Source: Bacteroidales bacterium
GTDB taxonomy: Bacteria > Bacteroidota > Bacteroidia > Bacteroidales > ML635J-15
Direction: 5' to 3'
DNA length: 36,466 bases
NCBI GenBank assembly: GCA_027858835.1
Contig: JAQIBY010000113.1
Location: 1-36,466 of the forward strand
This document shows positions 20,659 through 36,466 of this stretch, in pieces (the first letter of the stretch is position 1; each line of letters starts with the position of its first letter). The position numbers and the translations under genes are program-made. Below the pieces are notes generated by a model. That model made no database searches. It saw only the letters and a program-made list of their open reading frames with translations, and was not told the origin of the DNA.

Positions 20659-23600
20659 CTAATACACAACAGTTACTATTCCTGCTTTTGGTTCAGAGCC
20701 ATTAAAAAGATTGACAATATAAACGTAGCTTCCGGTTGGCACGGATTTTCCTTCAGTTGTTTTACCATCCCAAGGATCAGCTCCCGGATAACCGATATAG
20801 AGTACCTGTCCCCAGCGATTAAAAACCTGAACTTGATAATTATTGAACAAATCCAGATTTTCAATAATCCAACTGTCATTCACGTCATCCCCATTTGGTG
20901 AAAATGCATTAGGAATACGGATACATTCTTCAGGATTATCGACAAGCACAATATTTCCGACATCGTAGGTACATGCATTTGCATCACTTATCCTGACATT
21001 GTATGCCCCTTCCATTAATCCGTCTAAATATGGCAAATTGCCCGTAAACTCATCCCAATAAAAGGTATATGGTTCAACACCTCCTACTACATTCATATCA
21101 ATATATCCATCTGTGTTCCCAATACAACTTGGTCCTTGGAATTCAAAACCAACAATAATTGGTGCTGGTTGAGATATCATGAACAAGGAGTCAATTTGAC
21201 AATTGTTTGCATCTGTAACATGAAGTTCGTAAAACCCTTCATCCAAATTTTGAACTTGAGATGAATTACCAATAACTGAGCCTTGATTCAGCCATTGATA
21301 TTCGTATGGTTGAGTACCACCGGAAAGATTGGCTGTAATTGAACCATCAGCAATTGAGTAGCATGAAACATTCTCTAGATTGGAAGATATCGTAACTGGA
21401 CTTGAAGGTTGAGTAATATATATGCTATCATAATATGTACAGGAAAATGCATCTATCACATCAAAAACATACCAGCCGCTTGACAGATTAGCGATAGATA
21501 TCCCAGATGAACCGTCCTGCCAATTCACCTCATAAGGTTCCGTCCCTCCTGAAACTGTCAAATGAATAGAACCGTCATTATATGAATAACATGATACATC
21601 GTTTATCACAGAAGAAACATTAAGTCCATTGCTTTCAGTTACAAAAACTTCATCGCTTGCAGTACAACCATTGGCATTACCTGTCACTAAGATTTGATAA
21701 TCTCCTTCGGAATTCACCTCAGGATTCAGGCTATTTACTCCGGAAACGAAACTGCCATTCGTTGTTAACCAAGCATACGTAAATTCTGAACCAATGGAGG
21801 AAAGTGATCCGTCGAGGGTAATTGTAGCATTGCCGCAAGGTATCTCAGAATCACTTCCTGCGTTAGCAATTGGTGGAACAATATTTTCTGTGATAATGAC
21901 TTCATCACTATTCTCACAGCCATTAAGTGAATTTATAATTGTGCAAATGTAAGTTCCCGGCTCGTTGACAAGCGGTGTTGCTGTATTTAGTCCGCTCACA
22001 ATATTTCCGTCCGATGTTGTCCATAAAATATTGAACTCACTACCAGAATCTGAGCCTGTGCCATCCAGATTCAAACTGGTAATAGCACAGGTCAGCTCCT
22101 GATCCTCACCGGCTGAGACATTAGGGAGGGTGGTGAATTCAAGAACTGTAACTTCATCTGTTGAAGTACAAGCCGATAGATTGTTAAATACCGTCAAGGT
22201 GTAAGTACCTGAGGCATTAGTGGTGGGATAGATAGATGTCTCACCGGTTAGTATGTTTCCATTTGTTGTTGTCCATAAATACGAATAGTCAGAACCTGTT
22301 GATGAAGATGCGCCATCCAAAGTCACTGTCGGATCAGCACATGTTATTTCCATATCAACACCGGCATCAGCTATTGGAGGTGTTGTATTTTCAGTTACAA
22401 CTACCTGATCAAAATGCTCGCAACCATTGACAGTGTTTATAATTGTCAACTCATAGTTGCCTGCCTGATCCACTGTTGGCACTAAAGTATTCTGACCAGA
22501 AAGTATATTTCCATCTGTTGTCGTCCAACTAAGATTATAATCAGGACCAGAGTCTGAGCCTGTGCCGTCTAAATCAACTGTCAAATTAGCACAGGTCAGA
22601 ACCTGGTCAGCTCCAGCAAGCACATTGGGCTGAGAAAATGAGCCAAAAATTTCAACATCATCAACTGTGAAACAAGCATTCGAGAGATCTGTAACAGTTA
22701 ATGTATATGTGCCTGCTTCGGCAATAGTAGGAGATAAACCATTTCCGCCAGAAAAAATTCCACCGGCAGGACCATCCCATTGATACTCAAATTGAGCGCC
22801 TGAACTAGAGCCCGTAGCATCTAAGGAAATGGTCGGATTAAAACAATTTATTGTAGCGTCAATCCCGGCATCAGCAATCGGATTATCAAAGCTTTCGGTT
22901 ACCAAAGCTGCATCTGAAGCAGTACATCCATTGTTCGTATCTGTCACAACAATTGTGTATGTTCCTCCGGCATCAACTAGGGGATTGTCTGTATTTATTC
23001 CACCAACAATATTTCCGTTAGTAGTATTCCAAGCATAAGAAATGGTTGTACCTGAAGTTGAACCTGATCCATCCAAATTAATATCCGGGTTGGAACAAGT
23101 CAACTCCTGATCAGCACCTGCAGAAGCAATTGGTGCAATTAAATCTTCTGTAACACTAAGCTGATCAATTGAAGTACAACCATTATTTGTATTCGTAACG
23201 AGTAGGGTGTAAGTACCTACTGCATCAACATTGGGGATAGGGGTATTTGCTCCACTAATAATATTTCCTGACACGCTTGACCAGCTATAAGTAAATTCAG
23301 TACCTGATGAGGATGCATTCCCATCCAAATTTACCGTAGAAACAGCACAGGTTAAGGTTTGATCTGCCCCTGCATCTGCAGTTGGAGCTGTCATATCCTC
23401 AGAAATCATAATGTTATCTGTTGAAGTACAGCCATTAGCAGAAGTTACAGTGATTGTATATGTTCCAGCTGCGGTAAAACTGTTGGCTGCTGTAGTAACT
23501 CCACCACCCCAATCATATGTTCCTCCGCCGGTTGCAGTAACATCAATTTGTGCTGTGTTACAATCAATAACGGTGGTTCCTGTATTGTTGGTAATACCTG

Positions 23601-26600
23601 CGGTTGGAGCTGTTAAATCATCGGTAATGACAATATTATCAGTGGAAGTACAGCCATTTGAACCGGTAACTGTTACGGTGTATGTTCCGGCTGCGGTAAA
23701 ACTGTTGGCTGCTGTAGTAACTCCGCCACCCCAATCGTAAGTTCCACCACCGGTTGCAGTAACATCAATTTGTGCTGTGTTACAATCAATAACGGCGGTT
23801 CCTGTATTGTTGGTAATACCTGAGGTTGGAGCTGTTAAATCATCAGAAATAAGAATATTATCAGTGGAAGTACAGCCATTCGAACCAGTAACTGTTACGG
23901 TGTATGTTCCTGCTGCGGTAAAACTGTTAGACGCTGTAGTAACTCCTCCACCCCAATCATAAGTACCACCACCTGTTGCTGTCACATCAATTTGTGCTGT
24001 GTTACAATCAATAACTGTGGTTCCTGTATTGTTGGTAATACCTGCGGTTGGTGGAGCAATGTCTTCGGTGACAGTTATCTGATCTTCAGCAGTACATCCA
24101 TTATCGGTATCAGTGACCGTAATTGAATAGGTTCCGGCAGCATCAATTTGCGGTGTAGATGTTGTATTTCCATTTACAATATTCCCGCCTACCGTAGTCC
24201 AGTTGTAATTAATCGACGCTCCAGATGAAGAACTTGTTCCATCCAAGTTTAATGATGTAGTATTGCAATCAAGTATTTGATCGGTACCTGCATCTGCGGT
24301 GGGCAAGTTAGCATCCTGATCAATTACAACATCATCAGTATCGGTACAAGCTTGCGGCGAAGTAATTGTCAGTGTATAAGTTCCCGCTGCATTCACTTCA
24401 GGTGTTGCAGTATTTGCGCCAGAAACAATTCCTGGACCTGACCAGCTGTAAGTAATTCCTGTTCCGGTTGAAGCAGACCCATCTAGGAATATAGAAGGGC
24501 TCCCACAAGTTAGGGTTTGATCTGTCCCTGCATTTGCAATAATTTCAGGATAGAATGTAAATTCAATTACATCACCAATGTCCCAACACCCATCACCATC
24601 GACATCGTATCCTTGAGCAATATCACATGGGAAAGCATTGCAAATATCATCGAAAGTTAAGGCTGCTAAATAAAAAGTTCCTGTTGAGAACCCAGACCCA
24701 TCATTCACATCACCAGTGTCTGGATTATAATCAAAACCTAAATAACCGGCATTCGTTTCAGGAGCAGTTAAGTCTGTTGGAGATGATGTCCACAATACGT
24801 AGCCAAGACCATTTGGATCTGAGCTTGCTGGATCAGGAAGTATGTAATCATTATTTGTATTAAATTCTATTTGGTCACCCCAACACACATCATATTGATT
24901 GGAAGGATCAGTAACATCCACTCCGTTAATAAGTACGGAAGTTGTACCAACACTTGCCGGGCAAGTTACGGGAGGATAATAATATGATTCACAATGATCA
25001 TCTAATTGGCATTCGGATGGAACAATAAAGCTTATTTCAAGAATATATGTTGTGTTTGGAGCTAATCCTGTCCACTCAGGATTGTAAAATGTCACACCAG
25101 CATTAGGATTAATAGCATCTGGAGCAACAGCTGTTGCAGGACCACAAGGATCAGCAGGATACAATAAGGCGTTACGTGTTATATCACAGGTCACACCAAC
25201 AAGCTGAGTAGTACCAACAGATACGATTAAACCAAGCGTACCATCAGCACCTGTTGTTACTGAGTGATAACTCACATAAGTAGAATCGTTTGCAGGATCA
25301 GTTAGCGTATTCATTGAAGAGCAATGATTTCCTAAATCATTTGCCTCTGTAACATCAGCATAAGGTCCAGCTATATTACAATCGGGGGTACTACAAGTAC
25401 CACAAGGTTCAGGTCCACAACCAGCAGGATCAACAGTAATAGTAATGACAGAGTCACATGATGTGACTCCATCACTAATCGTTGCTCTATAACTCGTAGT
25501 TGTTACAGGAGCAACATCGACACTTAAAGGGGATGATGTGGATGTAGCGATAATTGTACTGGTCGATAAATTCTCAATTTCTAAAGTAATACCAGGGTTG
25601 GTTGTTGAGATGACAATATTATCAAGGCCCCAGTTATCAGTACCTGAGCTTGTTACCTTTGATTGCATCCAACGAAATTTTGTGTTTGCTGTTTGAGCTG
25701 CTGCAGGAATTGGATAAAGCATTTGTGTCCAATTTTTGACATAATCTCCGCAACCTGTTAATCCACCTTCTGATCCAAAGCTACCTTCTGTTCCGTTGGG
25801 GTAAATGTATTTGAAAGTTGTCCAATTAGCGCCTCCATCGGCTGAGTATTGTAGGTAAACACCCTCAAAAGTTCCACCTCCCTGATCAGGGGATTCACAA
25901 GGTGAACCGCTACCATTATTTCTAGCTTGACGATATTCAAAGCTGATGGTTCCACCAGCAGAAACATCCATCGCATTGGTTTCTAAAATACGAGGTCCGG
26001 GAGCATTTTGCATCCATAAATACATGGATCCATCTAAGGATGGGACGCATGCAGAATTTGTTATGCTTGCCGAAGCAGTAGCATCCCAACCAGTACCAAT
26101 TGTACCATCATTAAAATCGTTATTTAATGGAGCACTAACTACACTACCAGTTGCTTCAAGGCTAACAGTTTCGCCAGGACATATGGTTGCTTCTGGAGAA
26201 AAGTCGATATTACACCCAGGTTCACCAGGAACAGGAAATGTAATTATATTTGCCTCCCAGCCGAGGTTCGTTTCGGTTTCATTATTTTCGAAAACAAGTG
26301 TGAGACATCCGGAAGCATTTGTTGCTGCAAAAAGTGTTGGTGTTCCAATTAAGGGTTCACCCCCAAATGCTTCCACACCCATACCGTATGGCGTTACACC
26401 TGTATTATATTTTACGGTATAATCCCCCATTAATTTCCCAATATCATTTCCTGTAGCTGTAGGCCCATCGTATATATATAATGGATCTTCCTCATCCCAC
26501 ATCCAGTCCCAGGTAGTTTTAAAATAAATAAAATCAACAGCAACCTTGTAATCTGGATCAGATGGACACAAAGTAATTGTGTAGGAAGTATTGCCATCAT

Positions 26601-26757
26601 CACCGGAAGGTCCTCCCGCATCATAAAAGGTTTGTCCTGTTGAAACATTGACAGTTCCCCCGTCACTTATCAGAACATCCTGAGCGAAAGTGCGAGAAAC
26701 AAAAATTGAAAATGTTAATAATACAATACTGAATATGACCGACAATAACCCTTTCAT
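20659..26757 (-). CDS. 2032-residue surface adhesin with Ig/PKD-like repeats, SprB repeats and CHU_C (T9SS type B) domain
   Basis: Residues 1-26 are a signal peptide ending in FAQ. Residues about 27-180 look CUB-like (YDAGGPSGDDGNTSYTITLCP ... IYDGPTATGN ... LVFENNE). About 206-384 resemble a Reelin-type subrepeat (NDFNDGTIGTGWD ... YLQYSADGGANW ... DNWGLDNIVIS). From about 737 to 1706 there are 13 tandem modules: ten with an A-G-x-D-Q start and a closing T-D-x-V-x-V-T-E-like strand, and three of exactly 74 residues that are almost identical to one another. Residues about 1710-1940 are three SprB repeats (SCYSYNDGSI, SCYSIADGSI, SCIGNTDGYI, each followed by GG-x-x-PY). Residues 1945-2032 are a CHU_C domain (IPNAFSPNGDDVNDSW ... 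FNRWGQ ... WDGKTTEGKSVPTGSYVY). By analogy with SprB it should be exported by T9SS and act in adhesion or gliding. Its ATG lies 4 bases after the preceding gene's stop, so the two are one operon. Confidence 0.9.
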   Translation of the reverse strand: MKGLLSVIFSIVLLTFSIFVSRTFAQDVLISDGGTVNVSTGQTFYDAGGPSGDDGNTSYTITLCPSDPDYKVAVDFIYFKTTWDWMWDEEDPLYIYDGPTATGNDIGKLMGDYTVKYNTGVTPYGMGVEAFGGEPLIGTPTLFAATNASGCLTLVFENNETETNLGWEANIITFPVPGEPGCNIDFSPEATICPGETVSLEATGSVVSAPLNNDFNDGTIGTGWDATASASITNSACVPSLDGSMYLWMQNAPGPRILETNAMDVSAGGTISFEYRQARNNGSGSPCESPDQGGGTFEGVYLQYSADGGANWTTFKYIYPNGTEGSFGSEGGLTGCGDYVKNWTQMLYPIPAAAQTANTKFRWMQSKVTSSGTDNWGLDNIVISTTNPGITLEIENLSTSTIIATSTSSPLSVDVAPVTTTSYRATISDGVTSCDSVITITVDPAGCGPEPCGTCSTPDCNIAGPYADVTEANDLGNHCSSMNTLTDPANDSTYVSYHSVTTGADGTLGLIVSVGTTQLVGVTCDITRNALLYPADPCGPATAVAPDAINPNAGVTFYNPEWTGLAPNTTYILEISFIVPSECQLDDHCESYYYPPVTCPASVGTTSVLINGVDVTDPSNQYDVCWGDQIEFNTNNDYILPDPASSDPNGLGYVLWTSSPTDLTAPETNAGYLGFDYNPDTGDVNDGSGFSTGTFYLAALTFDDICNAFPCDIAQGYDVDGDGCWDIGDVIEFTFYPEIIANAGTDQTLTCGSPSIFLDGSASTGTGITYSWSGPGIVSGANTATPEVNAAGTYTLTITSPQACTDTDDVVIDQDANLPTADAGTDQILDCNTTSLNLDGTSSSSGASINYNWTTVGGNIVNGNTTSTPQIDAAGTYSITVTDTDNGCTAEDQITVTEDIAPPTAGITNNTGTTVIDCNTAQIDVTATGGGTYDWGGGVTTASNSFTAAGTYTVTVTGSNGCTSTDNILISDDLTAPTSGITNNTGTAVIDCNTAQIDVTATGGGTYDWGGGVTTAANSFTAAGTYTVTVTGSNGCTSTDNIVITDDLTAPTAGITNNTGTTVIDCNTAQIDVTATGGGTYDWGGGVTTAANSFTAAGTYTITVTSANGCTSTDNIMISEDMTAPTADAGADQTLTCAVSTVNLDGNASSSGTEFTYSWSSVSGNIISGANTPIPNVDAVGTYTLLVTNTNNGCTSIDQLSVTEDLIAPIASAGADQELTCSNPDINLDGSGSTSGTTISYAWNTTNGNIVGGINTDNPLVDAGGTYTIVVTDTNNGCTASDAALVTESFDNPIADAGIDATINCFNPTISLDATGSSSGAQFEYQWDGPAGGIFSGGNGLSPTIAEAGTYTLTVTDLSNACFTVDDVEIFGSFSQPNVLAGADQVLTCANLTVDLDGTGSDSGPDYNLSWTTTDGNILSGQNTLVPTVDQAGNYELTIINTVNGCEHFDQVVVTENTTPPIADAGVDMEITCADPTVTLDGASSSTGSDYSYLWTTTNGNILTGETSIYPTTNASGTYTLTVFNNLSACTSTDEVTVLEFTTLPNVSAGEDQELTCAITSLNLDGTGSDSGSEFNILWTTSDGNIVSGLNTATPLVNEPGTYICTIINSLNGCENSDEVIITENIVPPIANAGSDSEIPCGNATITLDGSLSSIGSEFTYAWLTTNGSFVSGVNSLNPEVNSEGDYQILVTGNANGCTASDEVFVTESNGLNVSSVINDVSCYSYNDGSIHLTVSGGTEPYEVNWQDGSSGISIANLSSGWYVFDVIDAFSCTYYDSIYITQPSSPVTISSNLENVSCYSIADGSITANLSGGTQPYEYQWLNQGSVIGNSSQVQNLDEGFYELHVTDANNCQIDSLFMISQPAPIIVGFEFQGPSCIGNTDGYIDMNVVGGVEPYTFYWDEFTGNLPYLDGLMEGAYNVRISDANACTYDVGNIVLVDNPEECIRIPNAFSPNGDDVNDSWIIENLDLFNNYQVQVFNRWGQVLYIGYPGADPWDGKTTEGKSVPTGSYVYIVNLFNGSEPKAGIVTVVY
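23389..24054 (-). repeat. Three tandem 222-bp repeats inside the adhesin gene
   Basis: The unit is exactly 222 bp (74 codons). A shared marker, CATCAATTTGTGCTGTGTTA on the plus strand, recurs at 23541, 23763 and 23985. The encoded copies differ at only a few residues. The flanking modules are clearly more diverged, so this is a recent expansion or is kept uniform by recombination. Confidence 0.92.
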
Positions 26758-26761
26758 ACGA

Positions 26762-29329
26762 CTAATTCTTTAAGATAATTTTCTGAGTTGATAATTCGCC
26801 ATTCATCATGACAGATACAAAAATCAAATCTCCTGAAGCAGGATATTTTGACATATCAAATTCCACATGAGAAATGCCGGGATAAATGTTTTCCTTAATC
26901 ATTGTACGACCTGTCATATCGACAACACGAACAGATGCACCATCCACATTATTGATGAAAGAAACATTGAGAAACTGTGTGCTCATCCATAAATCAAAGC
27001 TTGGTTTTGAAAGCTCATCAACTTCAACTTCAACAGAAACAGGGTATGTTAAACTCAGCGTTCCGTCAAAATCAACTTGTTTAAGTCGGTAATAACTGAT
27101 TCCTTGCAATGGTTTTTCATCAGTGTATTGATACTGAATGGTTTCATATGAATCTCCATGTCCTTTGATTTCTGCAATATTTTCAAAATCAACGCCGTTG
27201 GAAGATCGTTGTAAAATAAATTTCTCGTTATTTTTTTCAGATGCAGTAACCCAATTTAAAATAACTTTGTTTTGAAGCGTAAAGGCTGAAAAATCGACAA
27301 GTTCAACTGGTAGAGGATATTCAGAAGAGACGCCATCGGTGACATGAATATAGTAGTTAGCAGTCGCAGATGAATTTCCGTCAATGATTATGTAATAAGT
27401 ATTTCCAATTACCGCATTATCCATCGACAGATCAAAATTTTCCACGGAACCGTTACCAGTATGACTACGACCATCCAATGTATTTGGCGTACTTTCAGAT
27501 GAAGATTCTGGACATGTCATCACAATCCAATTATCATGCCCGGAACAAGGTGTTGGATTTCCCTCAACAACGATGACTTGAATATCACCAGATGAAGCTT
27601 GAATACCACTAACAGACATGTTAAAATATGTCGATGTCGCAATAAATTTCAGATACTGTGCTTCGTTATAACTGGCGTTCCAGCATCCACAGCCAGTAAT
27701 TCCATCTCCACAACTTACATGTTTTGTGGGCTGATTCCCATCATCAGAATCGGCATTTAAATTAGAACTTACATATGTCCCTAAAACAAGTTCGTAAGCA
27801 TTATCACAGTTTGCTCCAAAATTAGAGATATCAGTTTCAGAAAATGATGGTCCAAACTCAAGCTCAATATAATCAAGCTCAATATCATCGAGTGTAGAAG
27901 ATGCCGTTTCGCTAAATGTTACTGTCCAAGTACCATTTGCATTTGCTAATCCATCAAAATTACTTGAAAAATCACCAGCAGTTGAAATTCGATACAACCC
28001 AATATCGTAAGGTTTTATGGCAGAAGAAGTCGGTAGATTTAATCTGGAACTTTCTCTTAGTGTGACTTGAACATCGTCCGTATTTGAATCAAATGTACCT
28101 GTTGAAAAAAGTTCTATACTGCCTTTTGCTCCAGGAGATGTCAGATTACATTCATATTGAGATAAATCTTCACCATTTCCATTTTTCAAAAATATTTTCA
28201 CTTGTCTTAATCCATTTTCATTTACATCAAGAGGTGCTGTCAAACCAGACACCTCAATGTCAAAACTCAATGTCCCATCATTGCTTATTTCTGTTCCGGC
28301 AAAAGACCCACAAGTTCTAAATTGAGCAGGAATACTAAACGCAGGATCAAATGAACTAGGACAAGATAATATTTGGGAACCTGTAAGAGCTGTTGTATTA
28401 AAACAAGTACCATCGGCAGTATAAATATCAAAAGAGTAAGACAATCCACTAGTTAAACCAGTAATAGAGGCACTTGCACCTGTGTCATAATATACGACAA
28501 AATTACCACTATTTCCACTGCCAATTTCTTGTCCTAAACCAAAAATTGGATTTGCTGTATAACTAATATCTGAAACAGGTGGGACATCTAAATCTATTGT
28601 TTTTCGAGCAACAACCAATACACTATCACCGGAATTATTTGTCCAAGACAAGTCAACTGAATAGCTTGAATAATCGTCAATAGACAACCCTGATGGTGGT
28701 GTGGATGGTGGTGTACAAGAAGAAAGTGTCCCTTCGATTACAATATTATCAATTCTTTCATAAGCACTTGAAGCATCTCCAGTCCAACCTTCAACTTTAA
28801 GCTCAATACTTGAAGCACAAGACAAACCACTAAGGGATGCCGTTCCAGAGTCGTAAGTTGACTGATTTATACGAGTAAAAAAGTTCACCCAACTTCCCCC
28901 ATCAATACGATAATAAAAATAGAAATTTGCATTTGGAGCAGAAGAGGCCCCATTCATTTCCCAATCAATGCTAATTGAAACATCGGAAGCTGACACATTA
29001 ATTACTTTTGAATACCAGTCTAACCTATCGGATGAACTGCCATTAATATCTTTCCACTCAAGGTGTTTTCCTGAAACAACTCCACAATAATCTGAACTAT
29101 TTACTAATCCAGGGCTCCCAACCTCTACAATACTCCAATTATTATCAGTAGGATCATTGGATGTACTTCCAAATATTCCTGATGTCCCAATGACATCATT
29201 TGCATCTTCAAAATATTCTGAATAAATAATGTTTTGTGCATATAGAGGTTGGGACATAATTAAGACAAGTATCGTAAGTGTTACAATACTTATCACATAT
29301 GTTAAATATGAAAATTTAAAATTGCTCAT
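26762..29329 (-). CDS. Secreted multidomain protein with T9SS type A sorting domain
   Basis: The protein has 855 residues from ATG 29329; a TTG eight codons further upstream is possible but would only lengthen the signal peptide. A signal peptide ends at PLYAQ (about 31). A jelly-roll-like module follows (SEYFEDAND ... WYSKVINVSASDVSISIDWEMNG ... RIDNIVIEG), then a fibronectin type III domain (PSGLSIDDYSSYSVDLSW). A region resembling a proprotein-convertase P domain comes next (CNLTSPGAKGSIELF ... ANGTWTVTFSETA), then a module like bacterial pre-peptidase C-terminal domains. The C-terminus has LPVELVDFSAFTLQNKVILNW, YYRLKQVDFDG and a type A T9SS tail. No catalytic domain is visible, so the function is unknown. 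It is probably secreted or surface-held, and shares an operon with the CHU_C adhesin 4 bases downstream. The gap to the regulator gene at 29477 is 147 bases and holds only a weak -7-like site at 29362-29369. Confidence 0.85.
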   Translation of the reverse strand: MSNFKFSYLTYVISIVTLTILVLIMSQPLYAQNIIYSEYFEDANDVIGTSGIFGSTSNDPTDNNWSIVEVGSPGLVNSSDYCGVVSGKHLEWKDINGSSSDRLDWYSKVINVSASDVSISIDWEMNGASSAPNANFYFYYRIDGGSWVNFFTRINQSTYDSGTASLSGLSCASSIELKVEGWTGDASSAYERIDNIVIEGTLSSCTPPSTPPSGLSIDDYSSYSVDLSWTNNSGDSVLVVARKTIDLDVPPVSDISYTANPIFGLGQEIGSGNSGNFVVYYDTGASASITGLTSGLSYSFDIYTADGTCFNTTALTGSQILSCPSSFDPAFSIPAQFRTCGSFAGTEISNDGTLSFDIEVSGLTAPLDVNENGLRQVKIFLKNGNGEDLSQYECNLTSPGAKGSIELFSTGTFDSNTDDVQVTLRESSRLNLPTSSAIKPYDIGLYRISTAGDFSSNFDGLANANGTWTVTFSETASSTLDDIELDYIELEFGPSFSETDISNFGANCDNAYELVLGTYVSSNLNADSDDGNQPTKHVSCGDGITGCGCWNASYNEAQYLKFIATSTYFNMSVSGIQASSGDIQVIVVEGNPTPCSGHDNWIVMTCPESSSESTPNTLDGRSHTGNGSVENFDLSMDNAVIGNTYYIIIDGNSSATANYYIHVTDGVSSEYPLPVELVDFSAFTLQNKVILNWVTASEKNNEKFILQRSSNGVDFENIAEIKGHGDSYETIQYQYTDEKPLQGISYYRLKQVDFDGTLSLTYPVSVEVEVDELSKPSFDLWMSTQFLNVSFINNVDGASVRVVDMTGRTMIKENIYPGISHVEFDMSKYPASGDLIFVSVMMNGELSTQKIILKN

Positions 29330-29476
29330 AACAGTTGATTTATTTTTACGCAATTATGATGTAAATGTAAAGCTCTAGTTAATAAAAGCTTAATCAATGG
29401 TATGTACAGAAGTAAATTAGGGCTAAAATGCGCTCTAAGGGATTAATGGTTAGAGTTTGGGGTGTATGGTAAGCTA

Positions 29477-31228
29477 TTATGCAATTTTATCTAAAATAGA
29501 TTTTGGGAACTTTCTTGATACGGGGATTTCGGTATCAATTTCTGGAATATGCAACTTATAACCTTGAGCATTTCCACTTACTTTACTGATTTTAGAGACA
29601 TTTACGATGAAAGATTTATGACAACGGACAACCAATTCACAGGATTTAAGCTGATCTTCCATCCGTTTAAGACTGCCTCTTAACAATTGTTTTTTTACCT
29701 CTCCATGTTTTTTGAAATATACAGAAGAATAATTATCGCTGGCTTCAATATAAAGCAGTTCATTTATATAAATTTCCACTTTATCTTTTTCGTTTTCAGC
29801 AATCAGAGTTAACAATCTACAATCATCTTTTTTATCGGCAGTTTGCAATTTCTCAGACACATTTTGAGCGAGTTTTACATGTTTAGTCAACATGATACGC
29901 TCTGCAATAAGAATGAATAAGAAAATGGGCAAAACTGCAAACGAAAACACAGTAAGTAGGGCAGAAAAGAAAGCTTCAACACCCAGTTGATAATCTGGTG
30001 ACTGAAATAGTGCAAGGAAGAAAGCAAGTGTTATAACCACAAGAAAAACCGTACCTGAAATCATCAATAATGAGGAAAGATTTTTTGTGACACGATTAAG
30101 ATTACTTAATGCAAATACCATGGTGATTATCAAAGCAATCAATAAGAAATAGCGATGGTTTTTTTCAGAATTTGCTTGTTTTTGTAACAGTTTCTCTTTT
30201 TCAATAAGAAATTCAATCTCTTTTTCTTTTTCCGCAATTTGATATCTCGATTCAATTTCTGCAATTTTTGTATTGATCTCAACACTACTCAAAGAGTCAT
30301 TTAAAGCAATGAAGCGACGTTGAAATTCAAAAGCAGATTTAAAATTATTTTGCTTTGCATAAATATCTGACAACTGAAAATATGCTTCCCGAATTTCATT
30401 TTTAAAATCAACCATAGAAGCATATCGAATACTTTCTTTAATATCATCAACAGCTAAACTTAGGCGATTTTGTGCTTTATACAATTTACCTCTCTCAATT
30501 AGGCAGATGGCAATTCCTGCATCATCTTGCAATTCTTTTGCAATATCCAAAGCTTTATTCAAATGCTCTTCAGCCAGAGAATACTTATTTCTTTTAATAT
30601 CGACACCAGATAATCCGTATAAGGCAAAATAAATTCCCTCTTTATTGTTTAAGGTTTGTTCGTGTAGCAAAGAATTGTAATAATAGGTATATGCCAAATC
30701 CAAGCTATCCTTCAATTCATATACAGTCCCAAGGTTATAATAACGCAATGAAATTTCGGCTTTATTACCGATTTTTTCCTCAATTTCAAGCGACATTTTA
30801 TAATATTCCAATGCATTATCCAGACTTCCCTGAGTTTGATAAACACTCCCGATATTATTGTAACAGACCGACTTTTTGCTATCATCGTTTTGGTTTTTTG
30901 CAATATCGAGGGCTAACAAATAATCTGAAACTGCTTTTTCATATTCACCTAAATTCTTAAACAAAATTCCCTGTAGGATAAGTGCATCAAATTCTCTGTT
31001 TTTATCCTGTATTGCTTTACTTCTTTCGAGTGCAAGTTTTGCATATTCGACAGCCTTCACGGAATTTTTTCTGGATAATTTCCTGGACAAGGTCAGGCAT
31101 GAATCAATCGCCACAGTATCGTGAACAGGCTCGTCAACGATATTTACCCAACTATCAACCGGCTGTGCAGTGGTAGTTGAAAACACAAAGCTAAGTGCAA
31201 TAAAAAGAAAAACGACTAAACTTGGCAT
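29477..31228 (-). CDS. Membrane-bound TPR protein with C-terminal LytTR DNA-binding domain
   Basis: The protein has 583 residues. A signal peptide (MPSLVVFLFIALSFVFSTTTAQ) is followed by six to seven tetratricopeptide repeats (for example YEKAVSDYLLALDIAKNQ, LDNALEYYKMSLEIEEKIGN, ALDIAKELQDDAGIAICLIE). A charged coiled coil lies at about 313-356 (QIAEKEKEIEFLIEKEKLL), then three membrane segments between about 357 and 445. The last 100 residues form a LytTR domain (IYINELLYIEASDNYSSVYF, LRGSLKRMEDQL, VVRCHKSFIVNVSKISKV). The TPRs should lie outside the inner membrane and the DNA-binding domain in the cytoplasm, so the protein resembles a one-component transmembrane transcription regulator, with no kinase or receiver domain. 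Such TPR-TM-LytTR proteins occur in Bacteroidota, but targets are rarely known. It sits between two surface-protein gene sets and has its own promoter, so it may regulate them (inference). Confidence 0.88.
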   Translation of the reverse strand: MPSLVVFLFIALSFVFSTTTAQPVDSWVNIVDEPVHDTVAIDSCLTLSRKLSRKNSVKAVEYAKLALERSKAIQDKNREFDALILQGILFKNLGEYEKAVSDYLLALDIAKNQNDDSKKSVCYNNIGSVYQTQGSLDNALEYYKMSLEIEEKIGNKAEISLRYYNLGTVYELKDSLDLAYTYYYNSLLHEQTLNNKEGIYFALYGLSGVDIKRNKYSLAEEHLNKALDIAKELQDDAGIAICLIERGKLYKAQNRLSLAVDDIKESIRYASMVDFKNEIREAYFQLSDIYAKQNNFKSAFEFQRRFIALNDSLSSVEINTKIAEIESRYQIAEKEKEIEFLIEKEKLLQKQANSEKNHRYFLLIALIITMVFALSNLNRVTKNLSSLLMISGTVFLVVITLAFFLALFQSPDYQLGVEAFFSALLTVFSFAVLPIFLFILIAERIMLTKHVKLAQNVSEKLQTADKKDDCRLLTLIAENEKDKVEIYINELLYIEASDNYSSVYFKKHGEVKKQLLRGSLKRMEDQLKSCELVVRCHKSFIVNVSKISKVSGNAQGYKLHIPEIDTEIPVSRKFPKSILDKIA

Positions 31229-31265
31229 TAAAAAATAATTTATACCACAAAGTTAGTCGTTTTTT
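31209..31265. repeat. 12-bp inverted repeat spanning the start of the LytTR gene
   Basis: AAAAACGACTAA (31209-31220, inside codons 3-7) and TTAGTCGTTTTT (31254-31265) are perfect inverted copies 33 bases apart. The second arm overlaps the -7 element of the gene's promoter. The pair is too far apart for a terminator, and its upstream arm is largely outside the transcript, so it would act as DNA, perhaps an autoregulatory site. Confidence 0.45.
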
Positions 31266-31279
31266 TTCGTTTTCAACAA
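31249..31279 (-). promoter_or_regulatory. Bacteroidota-type promoter for the TPR-LytTR gene
   Basis: On the minus strand TAACTTTG (31256-31249) matches TAnnTTTG exactly. Two overlapping TTG options lie upstream, 17 (31276-31274) or 20 (31279-31277) bases away. The start codon follows 20 bases after the -7 element. This separates the regulator from the preceding OmpA gene. Confidence 0.65.
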
Positions 31280-31300
31280 ATAAACATAACAGTGCGTGAT

Positions 31301-33124
31301 TTATTCGTTGACTTTTACAATGGTGAATTCGGTTCTGCGGTTTGCAGCATGCTCATCTTCAGTACAATTTGAACATTGATTACATGGGAAAATTGGTTTG
31401 GATTCTCCATAACCTTTACCATATATTTGGTCAGAATTTTCAACTCCAGCGTGGATATAATCTGCTGCAGATTTTGCACGCTTATCGGACAATCTCATAT
31501 TAGATTGATATGAACCACGGCAATCAGTGTGGGAACTAAGCTCAATTGAGATGTCAGGATTATTATTCAAAAATTCAATCACCTTATCCAATTCAGTTGC
31601 TGCATCCTCACGGATATTCCATTTTGCAAAATCGTAATAAATAGGTGCTAAATCAATGAGTTTTGAGATTTCCAGTTTTTCTTGTGCTTTAATCATGACA
31701 AGTTGTTCTCGCGGAATTACCACTTCCCCGCCATCTTCAATAACCATAGCAAATTCCACTTTTTTGTTCAAATAGGATTTTTTTCTAAAATCAATGAGTA
31801 AGTGGATACTGTCCCCACGACGGTATGTATGCGGAAATTCCCATTCAATACCATCCGGCTCAGACAAATCAGAAAAGATAGAATCGCCCTCACAGAAAAT
31901 GGTAATATCCATATCGACAATTGGTGTTCCTTCTTCATTAATTGGTCGAATACTGAAAATCGGATAATCTTCAAGCACAATATCAAATTGAATGAACTCC
32001 TGTAAAGGATCAACATCTGTCAACAAAGAAAATTCATCGTTGAAATAATCTGTATGGTCTGCCTCAATGCGGTATTCGATATCTCGCACAGCTTTAATTT
32101 CATATTTTCCTTCCGGATTTGTTTTTAAACTTGTCTTTACTCCTGTGTCATCCGTAAAGTCAATGCTTGCATTTTGCACTATATTTCCTTTTGTATCGGA
32201 TACAATTCCACGTATTTTTAGTGGTTTCACAAGATTTTCCCAGGAATAAATATCGTCATTTCCCTTCCCTCCTTCTCGGTTTGAACTAAGATATCCTTTT
32301 TGTATCCCATTTTTATTTTCGGCAACGAAAAAAGCGAAGTCATCACGTTTTGAATTAATTGGAGCCGGAAGTGCTTGCGCTTTCTCAGTAGTATTCAAAT
32401 CAGCACAAAATACATCCAAACCTGACGTATCAACAAATCTTGAGAAATACAAGTTTTCATCCTTATCAATAAATGGAAAAAGTTCATCCTTATCAGTATT
32501 CACATGATTAGACAAGACAACAGATTTCCCCCAGATTCCATTTGTGTATTGGATCTTATAAATATCAGTTCCACCAAATCCTCCGGGTTTATCCGATACA
32601 AAATATAAAAGATTTCCATCCTCTGAAAAGCTAGGATGTCCGTTGGAGTATTCGGTTGAATTTACCGGAACTTCTTTTATTTCCGACCAATGATCGTCCA
32701 ACCATGTACAATAATACAATTGCAGTTTCAGTTCATGCTCCTCATTAAATCGCTTTGTTTTTCCAAAATATGCACTGCGTGTAAATACGAGCGTATTATT
32801 TGCCAAGGAATAGACCAAGGGGCCTTCATGAAATTTTGTATTGATAAAATCCATCATCTTCATAAGCTTTTCGCTTTCTGAATTTGTTTTTACATCGCAA
32901 AAATGCCGATTTGTATTTTTGTCTTTTTTTGACAAGATATTATCCGGAGCATCAGATATAAAAACCAGATCACCAAATAACTCAGAGGCTGAAAACTCTG
33001 AATATTCAGTATTAACCGGAAGATTTTCAATGGCATAAACTGCGGGTGTCTGTTGAGCGAATATCTCGACATGTATCAAAACGAGAATAAAAATGAAAAT
33101 ATGTTTCATAGTCAAAAATTTCAT
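31301..33124 (-). CDS. OmpA-family protein with WD40-like (PD40) repeats and carboxypeptidase-regulatory-like domain
   Basis: The protein has 607 residues from ATG 33124, one base after the stop of the PorP/SprF gene; ATG 33109 is also possible, and both give a signal peptide ending in IFAQ. PD40/WD40-like propeller motifs are seen (HPSFSEDGNLLYFVSDKPGGFGGTDIYK near 158-185, DELFPFIDKDENLYFSR). A carboxypeptidase-regulatory-like domain covers about 298-361 (IRGIVSDTKGNIVQNASI). A C-terminal OmpA domain covers about 494-607 (YYDFAKWNIREDA, IELSSHTDCRGSYQSNMRLSDKRA, CTEDEHAANRRTEF), which should bind peptidoglycan. No lipobox cysteine is present. The PD40, regulatory-like and OmpA order recalls the T9SS accessory protein PorE and the OmpA partners found beside PorP/SprF genes. 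It probably anchors the neighbouring outer-membrane and adhesin components to the cell wall. Confidence 0.87.
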   Translation of the reverse strand: MKFLTMKHIFIFILVLIHVEIFAQQTPAVYAIENLPVNTEYSEFSASELFGDLVFISDAPDNILSKKDKNTNRHFCDVKTNSESEKLMKMMDFINTKFHEGPLVYSLANNTLVFTRSAYFGKTKRFNEEHELKLQLYYCTWLDDHWSEIKEVPVNSTEYSNGHPSFSEDGNLLYFVSDKPGGFGGTDIYKIQYTNGIWGKSVVLSNHVNTDKDELFPFIDKDENLYFSRFVDTSGLDVFCADLNTTEKAQALPAPINSKRDDFAFFVAENKNGIQKGYLSSNREGGKGNDDIYSWENLVKPLKIRGIVSDTKGNIVQNASIDFTDDTGVKTSLKTNPEGKYEIKAVRDIEYRIEADHTDYFNDEFSLLTDVDPLQEFIQFDIVLEDYPIFSIRPINEEGTPIVDMDITIFCEGDSIFSDLSEPDGIEWEFPHTYRRGDSIHLLIDFRKKSYLNKKVEFAMVIEDGGEVVIPREQLVMIKAQEKLEISKLIDLAPIYYDFAKWNIREDAATELDKVIEFLNNNPDISIELSSHTDCRGSYQSNMRLSDKRAKSAADYIHAGVENSDQIYGKGYGESKPIFPCNQCSNCTEDEHAANRRTEFTIVKVNE

Positions 33125-33125
33125 A

Positions 33126-34043
33126 TTAAAAATATCTGGGAGACACATAAGATTTATCAATCGGACGGATATCGTATGTTAATGTTATCTCATGCGAACC
33201 GCTTTGAAAAGCGCTTAATTGAGTGATGCTATAATCATAAGAATAGGTCACTCTGAAATCATCATACACCTGAATTGAAAACAGCGGTCCTACAGCATCC
33301 ATATGACGATATAATAATCCGAACCAAAAACGATCTCTCATAATTACCGACAGTGTTGCCTCAACCGAAAGCGGCGCATTTTTCACATAGCGAGTCATTG
33401 CCATAGTACGAAGTTTAAAATCGGGATCAATATCAAAAACATAGCCTCCCATCAAGTATGCATGACGCTGATATGTCAAATTTCCTGTTTCTACAGAGTA
33501 TTTTTGGTTCAATAATGACGGAACACTAAACCCGACAAAACCATTTGTAAATTTTGCATACAGTCCAGCGCCAAAAACCGGTTTAAAACGATTGATATTT
33601 TGATAAAACGCAGGATCATCGATCTGAACACCTTCAACAGAGGAAAGTGCAGCATTTACATTATTCATTCCGGCAGATAAACCAGCATACAATTTGATGT
33701 TTTGGTTAAGCAACATATGGTATGACGCACTAATTTTGAAGCCGGTATTAGACAAGGGTCCGGCGACATCGCGTTGTAATGTTAATCCGAAACCCAGCTG
33801 GTGTTTATAAGGTGTATGCACACTAAATGCATAAGTTTGCGGGGCACCTTCAAGCCCTACCCATTGAATTCTACTGGTAAAATCAAGTGAAATCAATTCT
33901 GATGAGCCGGCGTATGACGGATTCACCATGAGTTGATTCAACATATAATGTGCTTTCAGTGGATCTTGTTGAGCAAAACCAGGCTTTGCCAAAACAAACA
34001 GAAGCACTATTGGTAATATTAAAAATATACGTTTCATAATCAT
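33126..34043 (-). CDS. PorP/SprF family type IX secretion membrane protein
   Basis: The protein has 305 residues, typical of the family. A signal peptide (KRIFLILPIVLLFVLAKPGFAQ) is followed by QDPLKAHYMLNQLMVNPSYAGSSE, the family signature (a near-N-terminal M-x-N-x-x-x-x-NPAYAG type motif). Repeated amphipathic strands follow (VGLEGAPQTYAFSVHTPY, LGFGLTLQRDVAGPLSN, ASYHMLLNQNIKLYAGLSAG) and it ends in a strand-rich barrel (FSIQVYDDFRVTYSYDYSI, HEITLTYDIRP). SprF is needed in Flavobacterium for surface delivery of SprB, a CHU_C-type protein, and this gene follows a CHU_C gene by 3 bases. Its likely job is therefore export or outer-membrane anchoring of that protein. ATG 34037 (M3) is an alternative start. 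Confidence 0.92.
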   Translation of the reverse strand: MIMKRIFLILPIVLLFVLAKPGFAQQDPLKAHYMLNQLMVNPSYAGSSELISLDFTSRIQWVGLEGAPQTYAFSVHTPYKHQLGFGLTLQRDVAGPLSNTGFKISASYHMLLNQNIKLYAGLSAGMNNVNAALSSVEGVQIDDPAFYQNINRFKPVFGAGLYAKFTNGFVGFSVPSLLNQKYSVETGNLTYQRHAYLMGGYVFDIDPDFKLRTMAMTRYVKNAPLSVEATLSVIMRDRFWFGLLYRHMDAVGPLFSIQVYDDFRVTYSYDYSITQLSAFQSGSHEITLTYDIRPIDKSYVSPRYF

Positions 34044-34046
34044 TTA

Positions 34047-36466
34047 TTAATAAGCGATATAAATATAACCTGAGAATGTTTCTTCATTTTTATCGTGTAA
34101 TTTCAGCACATAATAATACGTACCAGCCGGTAATTGCCCCCCATTCATATTTCTTCCGTCCCATGTATTATTATATGGTTTTGCTTGATAAACCATATTT
34201 CCCCAACGATTGAATACAGTAATTTCATTATCGGGGAATGGAATTAAACCATCGATTATCCAAGTATCCCCAATATTATCATTGTTTGGAGAGAAACCAC
34301 TTGGAATATGAATCGGAACATCCGCTAAAACTGTAATAAAAACACTATCAGTTGTTTGACACCCATTTTCATCAGCAGTTAGCATAAAAGAATAAGTTTC
34401 ATTACTTGCCTGATTTTCATCTGCATAAAAAACTGGATTCAAACAGTCATTACATGACAACATATCCGAAGGAGTCCAAATAAGCTGATCGACCCCAGTT
34501 ACTTCAATGCTTACTGTATTATCTGAATAAATCACACTGTCAGAAATCCATACATCGAATTCAGGATAAGGATTAATGACAACTGATTGTGAATAATTCT
34601 CAATACATGCATCTTCATCAGCCGGAGTAAATTGATAATTTTGGCTTCCTGCAATCTCTGATGTAATTACAAATGGTGTCCATGATCCAGTAATACCATT
34701 GTTTGACTCTGTAGGTAAAAGATCAACACTTTCACCGACACAATAAGGACCAAAATTCTGAAATTCCGGAGTCAGCATTTCATCCACAGTCACTGTAATG
34801 CTTACATTATTAGCACATTCTCCAGAGCTTGGTATAAACACATAATCCGCTTGTCCAACAAGGTTCGTATTGATTTCAGAAGGCGACCATACCCCATTGA
34901 CATCATTTTCAGATGTAGAATTCAATTGATCTGCTTGTTCCCCCTCACAGTAATTGTCAATTATTGTGAATGTAGGTTCAACAGACACTTGCACATCCAC
35001 ATTTATCATATCTGAAGCAGTACATGAGTTATTATCTGTAATCGTCACAGCATAATTACCACTGGCATTCACTTCTTGATTTTCTTGCGTATTTCCTGTT
35101 GACCAAATATAATCTGACATTCCGACACCTGCATTTATGGCAAAAGGCAATTCACTGTCGCACAATGAAATATCGGCTCCCAAATCAAGTGAAGGAGCTA
35201 AATTCACATCAACAATTACAGTTGATGTGGCAGTACACCCCTCAAGATTTGTTACTGTAACAGTGTATGAATCAGAACCTGATACATTAATCGCTTGAGA
35301 ATTCTCACCTGTGCTCCAATTGTAAACATCAAATGCAGCTCCAGCATCTATGGATAGAGGTGCATCGTAAGAACAAAGTGCTTGATCGGATCCTAGATCA
35401 ACTGTAGGAGTTGGATTCACTGTTAATACCATGGATGAACTTGCGGTACAAGCATTCCCATCTGTCACTGTTACTGCATAGGTGTCACTTGCTGAAGCAG
35501 CCAAAGTTTGCGTATCAGAACCTTCTGACCAATTGTAATCAGACATTGAAGCTCCGGCATCCAATGTAATTGGAACATCATATGCACATAATGTTTGATC
35601 GGTTCCTAAATCGACTGTTGGTGCAGGATTTACTGTGACATCAACTTGATCTGTTGCAGAGCAAGAACCGGCAGAAACAGTCACTTCATAAGTTCCAGAG
35701 GAGACAACATCAATTGTTGGAGAAGATGACCCTTCACTCCAACTGTAATTGTAAACAGCACTTGTTCCTGGATTGAGGGTAACAGGTGCATCATAACTAC
35801 AGACAACCGTATCACTGCCTAAATCGGGGACAGGGGAAGTCTCTAAACTGAGATGCATCGCATCTGTTGCAGTACAGCCATTACTCGCCGTAACTGTAAC
35901 AAAATAATCATCTTCAGCATCAACCGTTAGAGTTTGAGTGTCATCACCAGTTGACCAAGCATAATCAGACATTCCAGCACCCGCATCAAGCATGAGATTA
36001 TCGTAATCACATATCACTTGGTCTCCACCTAAATCGACTATTGGAGTAGTATTTACTGTTAAAGCCATGGAAGAGTTTGCCGTACATCCATTGCCATCTG
36101 TCACTGTCACTGCGTAAGTATCGCTTGTTGAAACATCCAAAGTTTGTGTATCAGAACCATCTGACCAATTATAATCAGACATTGCAGCTCCTGCATCCAA
36201 AGTAATTGGCACATCATATGAACAGAGTGATTGATCCGTTCCCAAATCGACTGATGGTGCAGTGTTTGCTGTTAAAGTCATGGAAGAGTTTGCCGTACAT
36301 CCATTGCCATCTGTCACTGTCACTGCGTAAGTATCGCTTGTTGAAACATCCGAAGTTTGTGTATCAGAACCATCTGACCAATTATAATCGGACATTGCAG
36401 CCCCTGCATCTAATGTAATTGGAACATCATATGAACAGAGTGTTTGATCCGTTCCCAAATCGACTG
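34047..36466 (-). CDS. Repeat-rich adhesin with CHU_C (T9SS type B) domain, N-terminus outside the window
   Basis: The open frame continues past the window edge; the TTG at 36458 is inside a repeat (VDLGTDQTLC) and is not a real start. In the 806 residues seen there are seven tandem modules of about 71 residues beginning DLG-x-D-x-x-C and containing SDYNWS-like and YAVTVTDGNGC-like strands, an Ig/PKD-type fold. Two further, different modules begin YCEGEQAD and YCVGESVD. The last 85-90 residues are a CHU_C domain (IPSGFSPNNDNIGDTW, FNRWGNMVYQA, WDGRNMNGGQLPAGTYYY). It should be exported by T9SS and displayed at the surface, with the PorP/SprF and OmpA proteins encoded directly downstream (3- and 1-base gaps) as partners. 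Total size and ligand are unknown. Confidence 0.9.
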   Translation of the reverse strand, partial: VDLGTDQTLCSYDVPITLDAGAAMSDYNWSDGSDTQTSDVSTSDTYAVTVTDGNGCTANSSMTLTANTAPSVDLGTDQSLCSYDVPITLDAGAAMSDYNWSDGSDTQTLDVSTSDTYAVTVTDGNGCTANSSMALTVNTTPIVDLGGDQVICDYDNLMLDAGAGMSDYAWSTGDDTQTLTVDAEDDYFVTVTASNGCTATDAMHLSLETSPVPDLGSDTVVCSYDAPVTLNPGTSAVYNYSWSEGSSSPTIDVVSSGTYEVTVSAGSCSATDQVDVTVNPAPTVDLGTDQTLCAYDVPITLDAGASMSDYNWSEGSDTQTLAASASDTYAVTVTDGNACTASSSMVLTVNPTPTVDLGSDQALCSYDAPLSIDAGAAFDVYNWSTGENSQAINVSGSDSYTVTVTNLEGCTATSTVIVDVNLAPSLDLGADISLCDSELPFAINAGVGMSDYIWSTGNTQENQEVNASGNYAVTITDNNSCTASDMINVDVQVSVEPTFTIIDNYCEGEQADQLNSTSENDVNGVWSPSEINTNLVGQADYVFIPSSGECANNVSITVTVDEMLTPEFQNFGPYCVGESVDLLPTESNNGITGSWTPFVITSEIAGSQNYQFTPADEDACIENYSQSVVINPYPEFDVWISDSVIYSDNTVSIEVTGVDQLIWTPSDMLSCNDCLNPVFYADENQASNETYSFMLTADENGCQTTDSVFITVLADVPIHIPSGFSPNNDNIGDTWIIDGLIPFPDNEITVFNRWGNMVYQAKPYNNTWDGRNMNGGQLPAGTYYYVLKLHDKNEETFSGYIYIAY
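36039..36464 (-). repeat. 213-bp tandem repeats in the adhesin gene, two near-identical copies
   Basis: The unit is 213 bp (71 codons). ACATCATATGAACAGAGTG on the plus strand recurs at 36211 and 36424. The copies at 36252-36464 and 36039-36251 are almost identical; five more diverged copies follow toward 34950. The array continues beyond the window edge. Confidence 0.88.

Follow-up and report, generated by a model that had tools for sequence, protein, structure and literature searches.

How a cell picks the surface proteins it expresses, when its genome has 33–62 matches to the CHU_C sorting domain as in each of the ten genomes searched, is, to our knowledge, a largely open question, and it is raised in concrete form by a 36,466-nucleotide stretch of DNA from a Bacteroidales bacterium (the window: contig JAQIBY010000113.1, which is the entire contig C105 of draft genome G000, 3.6 Mb in 184 contigs). 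Here the gene for P0001, a protein with tetratricopeptide repeats (TPRs), predicted transmembrane (TM) segments and a LytTR domain, lies between two sets of genes for surface proteins of the type IX secretion system (T9SS). On the minus strand the order runs from a CHU_C adhesin, cut at the contig end, through a PorP/SprF protein and an OmpA/PD40 protein to the TPR–TM–LytTR protein, and on to a secreted protein (P0005) and a 2032-aa CHU_C adhesin (P0006). An earlier note on this DNA had described this gene order and domain content, which Pfam and NCBIfam profiles and the coordinates of the open reading frames (ORFs) confirm, and had suggested that the protein adjusts adhesin expression. From the sequence comparisons below we consider it likely that P0001 is a transmembrane one-component regulator, in which a FimS-like periplasmic TPR sensor is fused to a membrane LytTR output that acts directly on T9SS adhesin promoters, and that it probably switches the surface coat of the cell.

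The regulator gene keeps T9SS surface-protein genes as neighbours

Full-length orthologues of P0001 were found in nine named draft genomes (L047–L054 and L057), with 40–50% identity in the best segment. Among 61 relatives four genomes carry a full-length copy (G000, G026, G029 and G057), the last three copies corresponding by coordinates to L050, L053 and L052. A search of 395 genomes sampled evenly across the class found, at E 1e-60, an orthologue in the window's own genome only; the TPR–LytTR family is rare in the sampled class. The G056 copy (L044 9533–10669) keeps the TPR part and has lost the LytTR part, and elsewhere in G056 (L260) stands a unit made up of a TPR-less LytTR gene, an array of the kind described below and a secreted-protein gene. 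A second, more distant TPR–TM–LytTR type (L055 9977–12127, L056 9764–11941, L058 8609–10702) lies beside T9SS cargo or a GH92 glycosidase.

We applied an identical ORF and profile procedure to the ten orthologue loci and to 80 control loci in the ten genomes concerned, chosen around LytTR genes other than the orthologues. The 80 were picked by us from 112 non-orthologous LytTR genes, passing over most at contig starts, the second TPR–LytTR type and further ones towards the end of the list; some of these stretches overlap (L192 and L194, for example), and two without a callable gene at the expected place (L127, L132) were dropped, leaving 78. CHU_C lies within two genes of seven of the ten orthologues and of one of the 78 other LytTR genes (Fisher P = 1.5e-7), and PorP or OmpA/PD40 neighbours occur at 4/10 and 6/78 (P = 0.013). 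For any T9SS C-terminal domain (CTD) within two genes the counts are 8/10 and 22/78 (P = 0.002), a weaker comparison than that of CHU_C because the in-house CTD profile is generous, with 124 ORFs matched. This profile was seeded with the C-terminus of the product of window positions 341–6736, picked by eye; it was concordant with TIGR04183 on the three proteins scanned with both, and a seed taken from P0005 alone matched nothing but itself. The earlier note had staked its idea on a conserved neighbourhood in related genomes, and the idea survives this comparison.

The neighbours themselves are related across loci. P0005 is homologous to cargo in L047, L050 and L057, with 63% identity across 603 aa to the protein in the corresponding place in L050, and in L047 and L050, the only orthologue loci in which no CTD was called, its homologue lies directly downstream of the regulator. 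Residues 9–444 of P0006 are 65% identical to the adhesin beside the L053 orthologue, whose N-terminus in turn matches adhesins in L048, L049 and L051 at 42–44%. The profiles place choice_anch_L adhesins in L050, where the contig ends within the gene, in L052 and in L054; homology adds one in L049, and L048 and L051 have relatives of these. The orientation of the regulator varies, being co-directional, divergent or convergent relative to its neighbours.

A tandem array precedes the cargo genes

At all ten loci a gap directly flanking the regulator holds a tandem array of about four boxes (approximately CATTTACCCCAAA) with a 21-bp pitch, standing before the cargo genes. The boxes of the window are at 29457–29469, 29436–29448, 29417–29431 and 29395–29408, the fourth being weak. 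An expectation–maximization (EM) motif search with no motif supplied, run over 14 upstream regions out of 17 (L051, which has three, was omitted), returned caTTtacCCCaAA. With a motif refined from a typed consensus, of which spacing is no part, 41 of the 48 box pairs at most 70 bp apart fell at 18–22, 38–43 or 59–62 bp. Such direct repeats at two-turn spacing before cargo genes make the array a candidate LytTR operator.

We then built a sequence-only model, R1, from 14 arrays aligned across about 80 bases. Run on the window together with 92 loci (1.5 Mb), R1 gave the training arrays 37.8–49.6 bits, the untrained array of L049 22.2 bits and nothing else more than 12.8 bits. When one lineage at a time was left out, each of 15 arrays was the top site of its own locus (11.5–31.8 bits) and in each run scored higher than any site in the 80 control loci (maxima 8.7–11.1 bits); with the window omitted from training, its array was still the window's best site, at 19.7 bits against a control maximum of 10.6 bits. 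A scan of the ten whole genomes gave four untrained matches above 20 bits: G069:C61 (39.9), G061:C13 (31.8), G068:C16 (29.2) and the L049 array. The three above 25 bits all lie directly upstream of genes for surface proteins of the T9SS kind: a type B CTD gene followed by PorP, a choice_anch_L gene truncated where its contig stops and a gene with a type A CTD, respectively. The L049 array precedes the gene of a 620-aa protein with no family match, homologous to the type A-like cargo of L048 and L051, and a weaker match, G067:C26 (18.4 bits), precedes a secreted-looking ORF and then a type A-like CTD ORF. All remaining matches in these genomes scored at most 17.7 bits.

Other origins of the array were considered. 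We judge a mobile or repeat-derived element unlikely, the 14 arrays averaging 61% column identity, and likewise a leader-RNA element, a −7-like element standing downstream of the array. A model match at L272 is a minisatellite of TTGCCCCATAAT-like units and was taken as false.

The gene set on the other side of the regulator could be followed beyond the contig end. Window positions 36348–36466 overlap the start of contig G000:C149 exactly over 119 bp, the contig break falling inside adhesin repeats; the window's CHU_C adhesin gene therefore very probably continues into C149, with its 5′ part there. The protein part encoded on C149 has an N-terminal choice_anch_L domain and shares 51% identity with the L052 adhesin that bears an array; its gene is preceded by two boxes 21 bp apart (14.6 bits, E 0.10), the second-best R1 match in G000. 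With the strong array at P0005–P0006 and this weak pair, both gene sets flanking the regulator therefore bear boxes. The link between regulator and adhesin expression that the earlier note had proposed thus gains a candidate basis in operator-like arrays before the cargo operons and, more weakly, before the set upstream of the regulator. Neither the arrays nor the likeness to FimS described below figured in that note.

A promoter-like element stands at a fixed distance from the array

Bacteroidota promoters have a −7 consensus of TAnnTTTG, with transcription starting about seven bases beyond it. In 18 of 19 arrays an element of this kind, which is no part of the array model, starts 103–107 positions from the array start and matches at least five of six positions, all six in six arrays. 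The mean best −7 score at that offset was 5.26 out of 6; averaged over every offset it was 3.39, and the best interval of offsets not overlapping this one reached 3.79. With the transcription start placed about seven bases past the element, the boxes fall near −104, −83, −63 and −43, and TTG is absent at the −33 position in 13 of the 19 array promoters. Because the boxes lie mostly well upstream and these 13 promoters lack TTG, the regulator that reads the array probably acts as an activator.

The earlier note's view that the regulator is separately promoted held up: the 72-bp gap before its gene contains TAACTTTG at 31255–31248. Model R1 finds no array before this gene in the window, which thus shows no sign there of the autoregulation described for LytTR regulatory systems (LRS). 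In L050, L052, L053 and L054 the array lies in a divergent gap common to regulator and cargo gene, where it may also serve autoregulation.

Predicted architecture and topology of the regulator

Hydropathy analysis of P0001 gave a signal peptide at residues 3–21 and TM segments at 360–378, 387–405 and 423–441. Because the loop charges around the predicted helices are +2, −2 and +2, the prediction agrees with the earlier note in putting the TPRs on the outer side of the inner membrane and the LytTR domain in the cytoplasm. An AlphaFold2 model (mean pLDDT 80, pTM 0.49) has a TPR solenoid at 37–309, a long helix at 316–380, two more TM helices and a beta-rich domain at 472–582. The LytTR domain scores 55.2 bits against PF04397, above the curated cut-off of 22.6, and shares one chain with the predicted TM segments, as in the transmembrane transcription regulators (TTRs). 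The best NCBIfam match is the sensor part of FimS, over residues 6–380 (E 2.1e-33, 115.5 bits with a family cut-off of 600); by this profile under its cut-off, and by predicted location, P0001 has a periplasmic TPR sensor like that of FimS. A Pfam scan found neither a histidine kinase or ATPase family nor an MHYT domain in P0001, the lack of MHYT placing it outside the CoxC subfamily. Among the matches listed in structure and sequence searches of the PDB were generic TPR proteins (LGN, designed TPRs and kinesin light chain), with no functional hint.

A proposed mechanism and its alternatives

We propose that the periplasmic TPR solenoid senses a protein, peptide or other ligand and that the three predicted TM helices would pass the change to the cytoplasmic LytTR domain. 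LytTR domains, probably as dimers on the two-turn direct repeats, would bind the roughly four-box array on one DNA face, just upstream of the promoters of T9SS surface-protein operons, and to judge from the geometry binding would most likely activate transcription. Likely targets in G000 would be the P0005–P0006 pair and, more weakly, the choice_anch_L/CHU_C adhesin–PorP–OmpA operon on the other side.

Several points weigh against this proposal. The arrays were first spotted by eye in the gaps before cargo genes, and the leave-one-out runs kept alignment columns made from all 14 arrays. No array stands before the divergent type A cargo gene beside the regulator of L048 and of L051, and these two loci are near-duplicates, leaving about nine independent lineages; every genome carrying the regulator gene is a draft, and all nine that are named bear titles of metagenome-assembled genomes. 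The box pair on C149 scores barely above the next match in G000 (14.5 bits). A LytTR operator close to −35 can repress, as that of CoxC does, so regulation here may be of either sign. With 7–28 LytTR genes per genome, another membrane LytTR could bind the arrays.

This last point can be sharpened into an alternative in which the arrays are real LytTR operators read by another, TPR-less membrane LytTR of the same cell, the TPR–LytTR gene being a mere passenger of a surface-protein island. G000 does encode a further membrane LytTR that shares the TM linker (L045 10718–11635, 305 aa, four predicted TM segments), and similar arrays, weaker by R1, adjoin TPR-less LytTR genes in genomes without the TPR protein. 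However, among the 61 relatives R1 matches above 25 bits are confined to the four with a full-length TPR–LytTR gene, sites of these four being in the training set, and arrays adjoin that gene at every orthologue locus; we find a passenger quite improbable. That the gene order means nothing, CHU_C, PorP and LytTR genes all being frequent (33–62, 11–22 and 7–28 per genome in the ten searched) and a T9SS CTD within two genes being common among controls too, is by far the least credible explanation, given the CHU_C contrast, the homologous cargo families beside the regulator in different lineages and arrays before cargo genes that are top sites against control loci and genome-wide.

A further alternative concerns the sign of regulation. 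The array might repress the adhesin operons, with a ligand on the TPR part bringing relief: CoxC, a membrane LytTR, is described as binding three direct repeats that overlap the −35 box and as repressing (PMC11347149, in the part of the paper drawn on), and the most proximal box here, at about −43, lies near the −33 position. Three of the four boxes are nevertheless well upstream, the lack of TTG in most of the array promoters is as expected for activator-dependent ones, and in the LRS and AgrA promoters treated in the excerpts used here, LytTR repeats that stand immediately before −35 accompany activation (PMC6193735, PMC4227749). We regard repression as rather unlikely and retain direct activation of adhesin operons by the TPR–LytTR protein as the preferred reading.

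Related arrays beside other membrane LytTR genes

The LytTR domains of the ten orthologues form one clade (support 0.90) inside a larger group defined by an in-house TM-linker profile. In a tree of 163 LytTR sequences a single split (support 0.88) parts TM-linker proteins, with or without TPRs, from the rest, placing 156 correctly. The other group is mostly without TM segments (94 of 109 members) but includes 15 membrane proteins of other types, with two or more predicted TM segments; five of these 15 have arrays on the upstream side. Of 42 TM-linker LytTR genes, 14 have a box pair at 20–22 bp (cut-off 6) on their immediate downstream side, compared with one of 108 other LytTR genes (P = 3.6e-8) and 14 of 1715 other genes (P = 5.9e-17), a contrast between LytTR groups that is valid for the downstream side only; two of the 14 pairs at other genes are previously found arrays. 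At control spacings of 14–16 and 26–28 bp the counts were 3/42 and 6/42 for TM-linker genes and 14/1715 and 7/1715 for other genes, and part of the signal is therefore independent of spacing. Genes downstream of these TM-linker arrays include DUF2306 membrane proteins and an acyltransferase. In L096, L099, L104, L108 and L114 the array is instead on the upstream side of the LytTR gene and on the other strand.

The 16 weaker R1 matches examined came from genomes without a full-length TPR gene, 13 as the best from the 61 relatives and three from a class-wide scan in which 11 candidates were scored per genome, so that absence there is weak evidence. Six of the 16 adjoin or lie near another LytTR gene (L256, L257, L260, L263, L270 and L271; in L270 one gene intervenes). 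L255, L258, L259, L261 and L262 represent one recurrent site in one genus of the family, where four-box arrays precede a gene of about 540 aa and a giant secreted ORF is divergent; by eye the shorter product resembles an acyl-CoA synthetase, and no LytTR gene was called within the stretch viewed. In genomes titled as Bacteroidota lineages, Ignavibacteria and Kapabacterium, TPR-less TM-linker LytTR genes (L061, L062, L066, L071, L074, L077, L078, L083, L092, L094, L097 and others) have similar tandem boxes immediately after them, with a varied target gene next in order. The arrays at L270 7808–7877 (−), L271 7531–7607 (−) and L083 10769–10846 (+) precede DUF2306 membrane-protein genes near membrane LytTR genes, the L271 match to DUF2306 being under the Pfam cut-off.

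A broader reading would make the membrane LytTR regulators of Bacteroidota, and perhaps of Ignavibacteria/Kapabacteria-type bacteria, one class with a shared operator code (tandem boxes of about TTCRCCCCAAA, 21-bp pitch) beside their own genes. The TPR member would be its export-coupled feedback sensor, with the periplasmic solenoid binding T9SS adhesin chains or PorP/OmpA anchors in transit and so matching adhesin transcription to export. Taken whole we hold this to be doubtful; its shared-code half has direct sequence support in the box arrays beside TM-linker genes and in the LytTR tree. The related suggestion of the earlier note, that the regulator could report on surface-layer export or assembly, is a possible one.

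Genes and features of the window

The coordinates of the regulator, its neighbours and the associated sequence elements are collected in Table 1.

Table 1 Features of the window discussed in the text
Feature	Position	Strand	Evidence or comment
CHU_C (type B) T9SS adhesin, C-terminal part	34047..36464	−	PF13585 E 9.5e-29, TIGR04131 E 1.9e-18; 5′ end off contig
PorP/SprF-family outer-membrane protein	33126..34043	−	PF11751 E 1.9e-68, TIGR03519 E 4.4e-70
PD40 + CarboxypepD_reg + OmpA protein (P0002), PorE-like	31301..33160	−	start at internal ATG 33109 likely
TAACTTTG, putative −7 element of the regulator's own promoter	31248..31255	−	pattern TAnnTTTG
TPR–TM–LytTR regulator (P0001), 583 aa	29477..31228	−	TPR_12 E 2.6e-28, LytTR E 8.6e-15
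Operator-like array, four boxes, ~21-bp pitch	29396..29473	−	model R1 41.8 bits; precedes P0005–P0006 gene pair
TACATTTA, −7-like element at fixed distance from array	29362..29369	−	pattern scan
Secreted protein P0005, 855 aa, type A-like CTD, first gene past array	26762..29329	−	ORF 29353–26762; ATG 29329 likely start
CHU_C (type B) adhesin P0006, 2032 aa, second gene past array	20659..26757	−	4-bp gap after P0005

The C-terminus of the flanking adhesin, by CHU_C and TIGR04131, adjoins the PorP gene, as in gene sets of T9SS type B cargo with PorP/SprF, and the PorP/SprF protein is likely to be the anchor of this adhesin. P0002 has its best NCBIfam matches in CHU_0125_OmpA and PorE, each under its cut-off. 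P0005 had been called a type A secreted protein in the earlier note; the in-house CTD profile and C-terminal homology speak for this, and no NCBIfam family matched it at E 0.1, which leaves the assignment partly supported. On the plus strand, positions 341–6736 encode a 2131-aa secreted protein that by eye has a type A-like C-terminus and an amidase/PGRP-like N-terminal part.

Significance and comparison with known systems

The locus offers a concrete candidate for how surface proteins are chosen, with one sensor protein, a putative defined DNA operator and a named target set, and the array gives a handle for locating the targets of other membrane LytTR proteins. Among the titles and abstract starts listed in searches of the open-licence PMC literature we found no TPR–LytTR regulator, array or T9SS cargo operator of this kind; a paper there that holds both LytTR and T9SS deals, in its LytTR passages, with counts of LytTR response regulators. 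The comparisons that follow draw on excerpts of the papers cited.

In its putative operator the system resembles the LRS and the Bacteroides 'LRS-like' operons, which combine LytTR with direct repeats about two helical turns apart just upstream of promoters (PMC6193735). The Bacteroides proteins have TM segments before the LytTR domain, and their 11-bp repeats stand 11 bp apart upstream of TGTA-19-TATCTTTG; these repeats (TCCGGTATTCA...), given as one pair, differ from the boxes here. LRS operons also contain a separate membrane-protein gene, whereas here that gene is absent, the LytTR protein itself is predicted to be membrane-bound and its neighbours encode OmpA and a secreted protein. CoxC of Afipia carboxidovorans (MHYT–LytTR) is likewise a membrane-anchored one-component LytTR, with an operator of three direct repeats at 18–21-bp intervals (PMC11347149); it senses CO via seven TM helices and represses cox genes, in contrast to the predicted periplasmic TPR part, four-box array and putative T9SS adhesin targets found here. 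TTRs, which are enriched in Bacteroidota, also join a TM region and a DNA-binding domain on one polypeptide (PMC10269533); the main text of that paper is without the words tetratricopeptide or TPR, and the passages used name no T9SS regulon.

In its targets the system recalls others. The CHU_C, PorP and OmpA/PD40 set resembles by family the PG1035–PorP–PorE complex, which contains a type B CTD protein (compare SprB–SprF) (PMC9143113), a likeness of the target gene set, not of the regulator, with P0002 under the PorE cut-off. PorX/PorY–SigP of Porphyromonas gingivalis also ties envelope-to-gene signalling to the T9SS, with the CTD protein PorA feeding in (PMC7712824), but it is a two-component system with an extracytoplasmic function (ECF) sigma factor on secretion-machine genes, whereas we propose a one-component LytTR acting on adhesins.

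By NCBIfam profile the sensor has its nearest counterpart in FimS/FimR of P. gingivalis, a TPR-sensor two-component system that controls FimA fimbriae. As proposed for P0001, FimS is a periplasmic multi-TPR sensor, described as an inner-membrane protein, that serves the control of a surface adhesin; it has eight predicted TPR motifs and its signal is given as unknown (PMC11053733). FimS is a histidine kinase with FimR as a separate partner, whereas in P0001 the LytTR output sits on the same chain and the Pfam scan found no kinase domain. In effect P0001 would condense FimS/FimR into a single polypeptide. The FimS-type TPR sensor seems to recur with another output, and identifying the ligand of either protein may help in understanding its counterpart.

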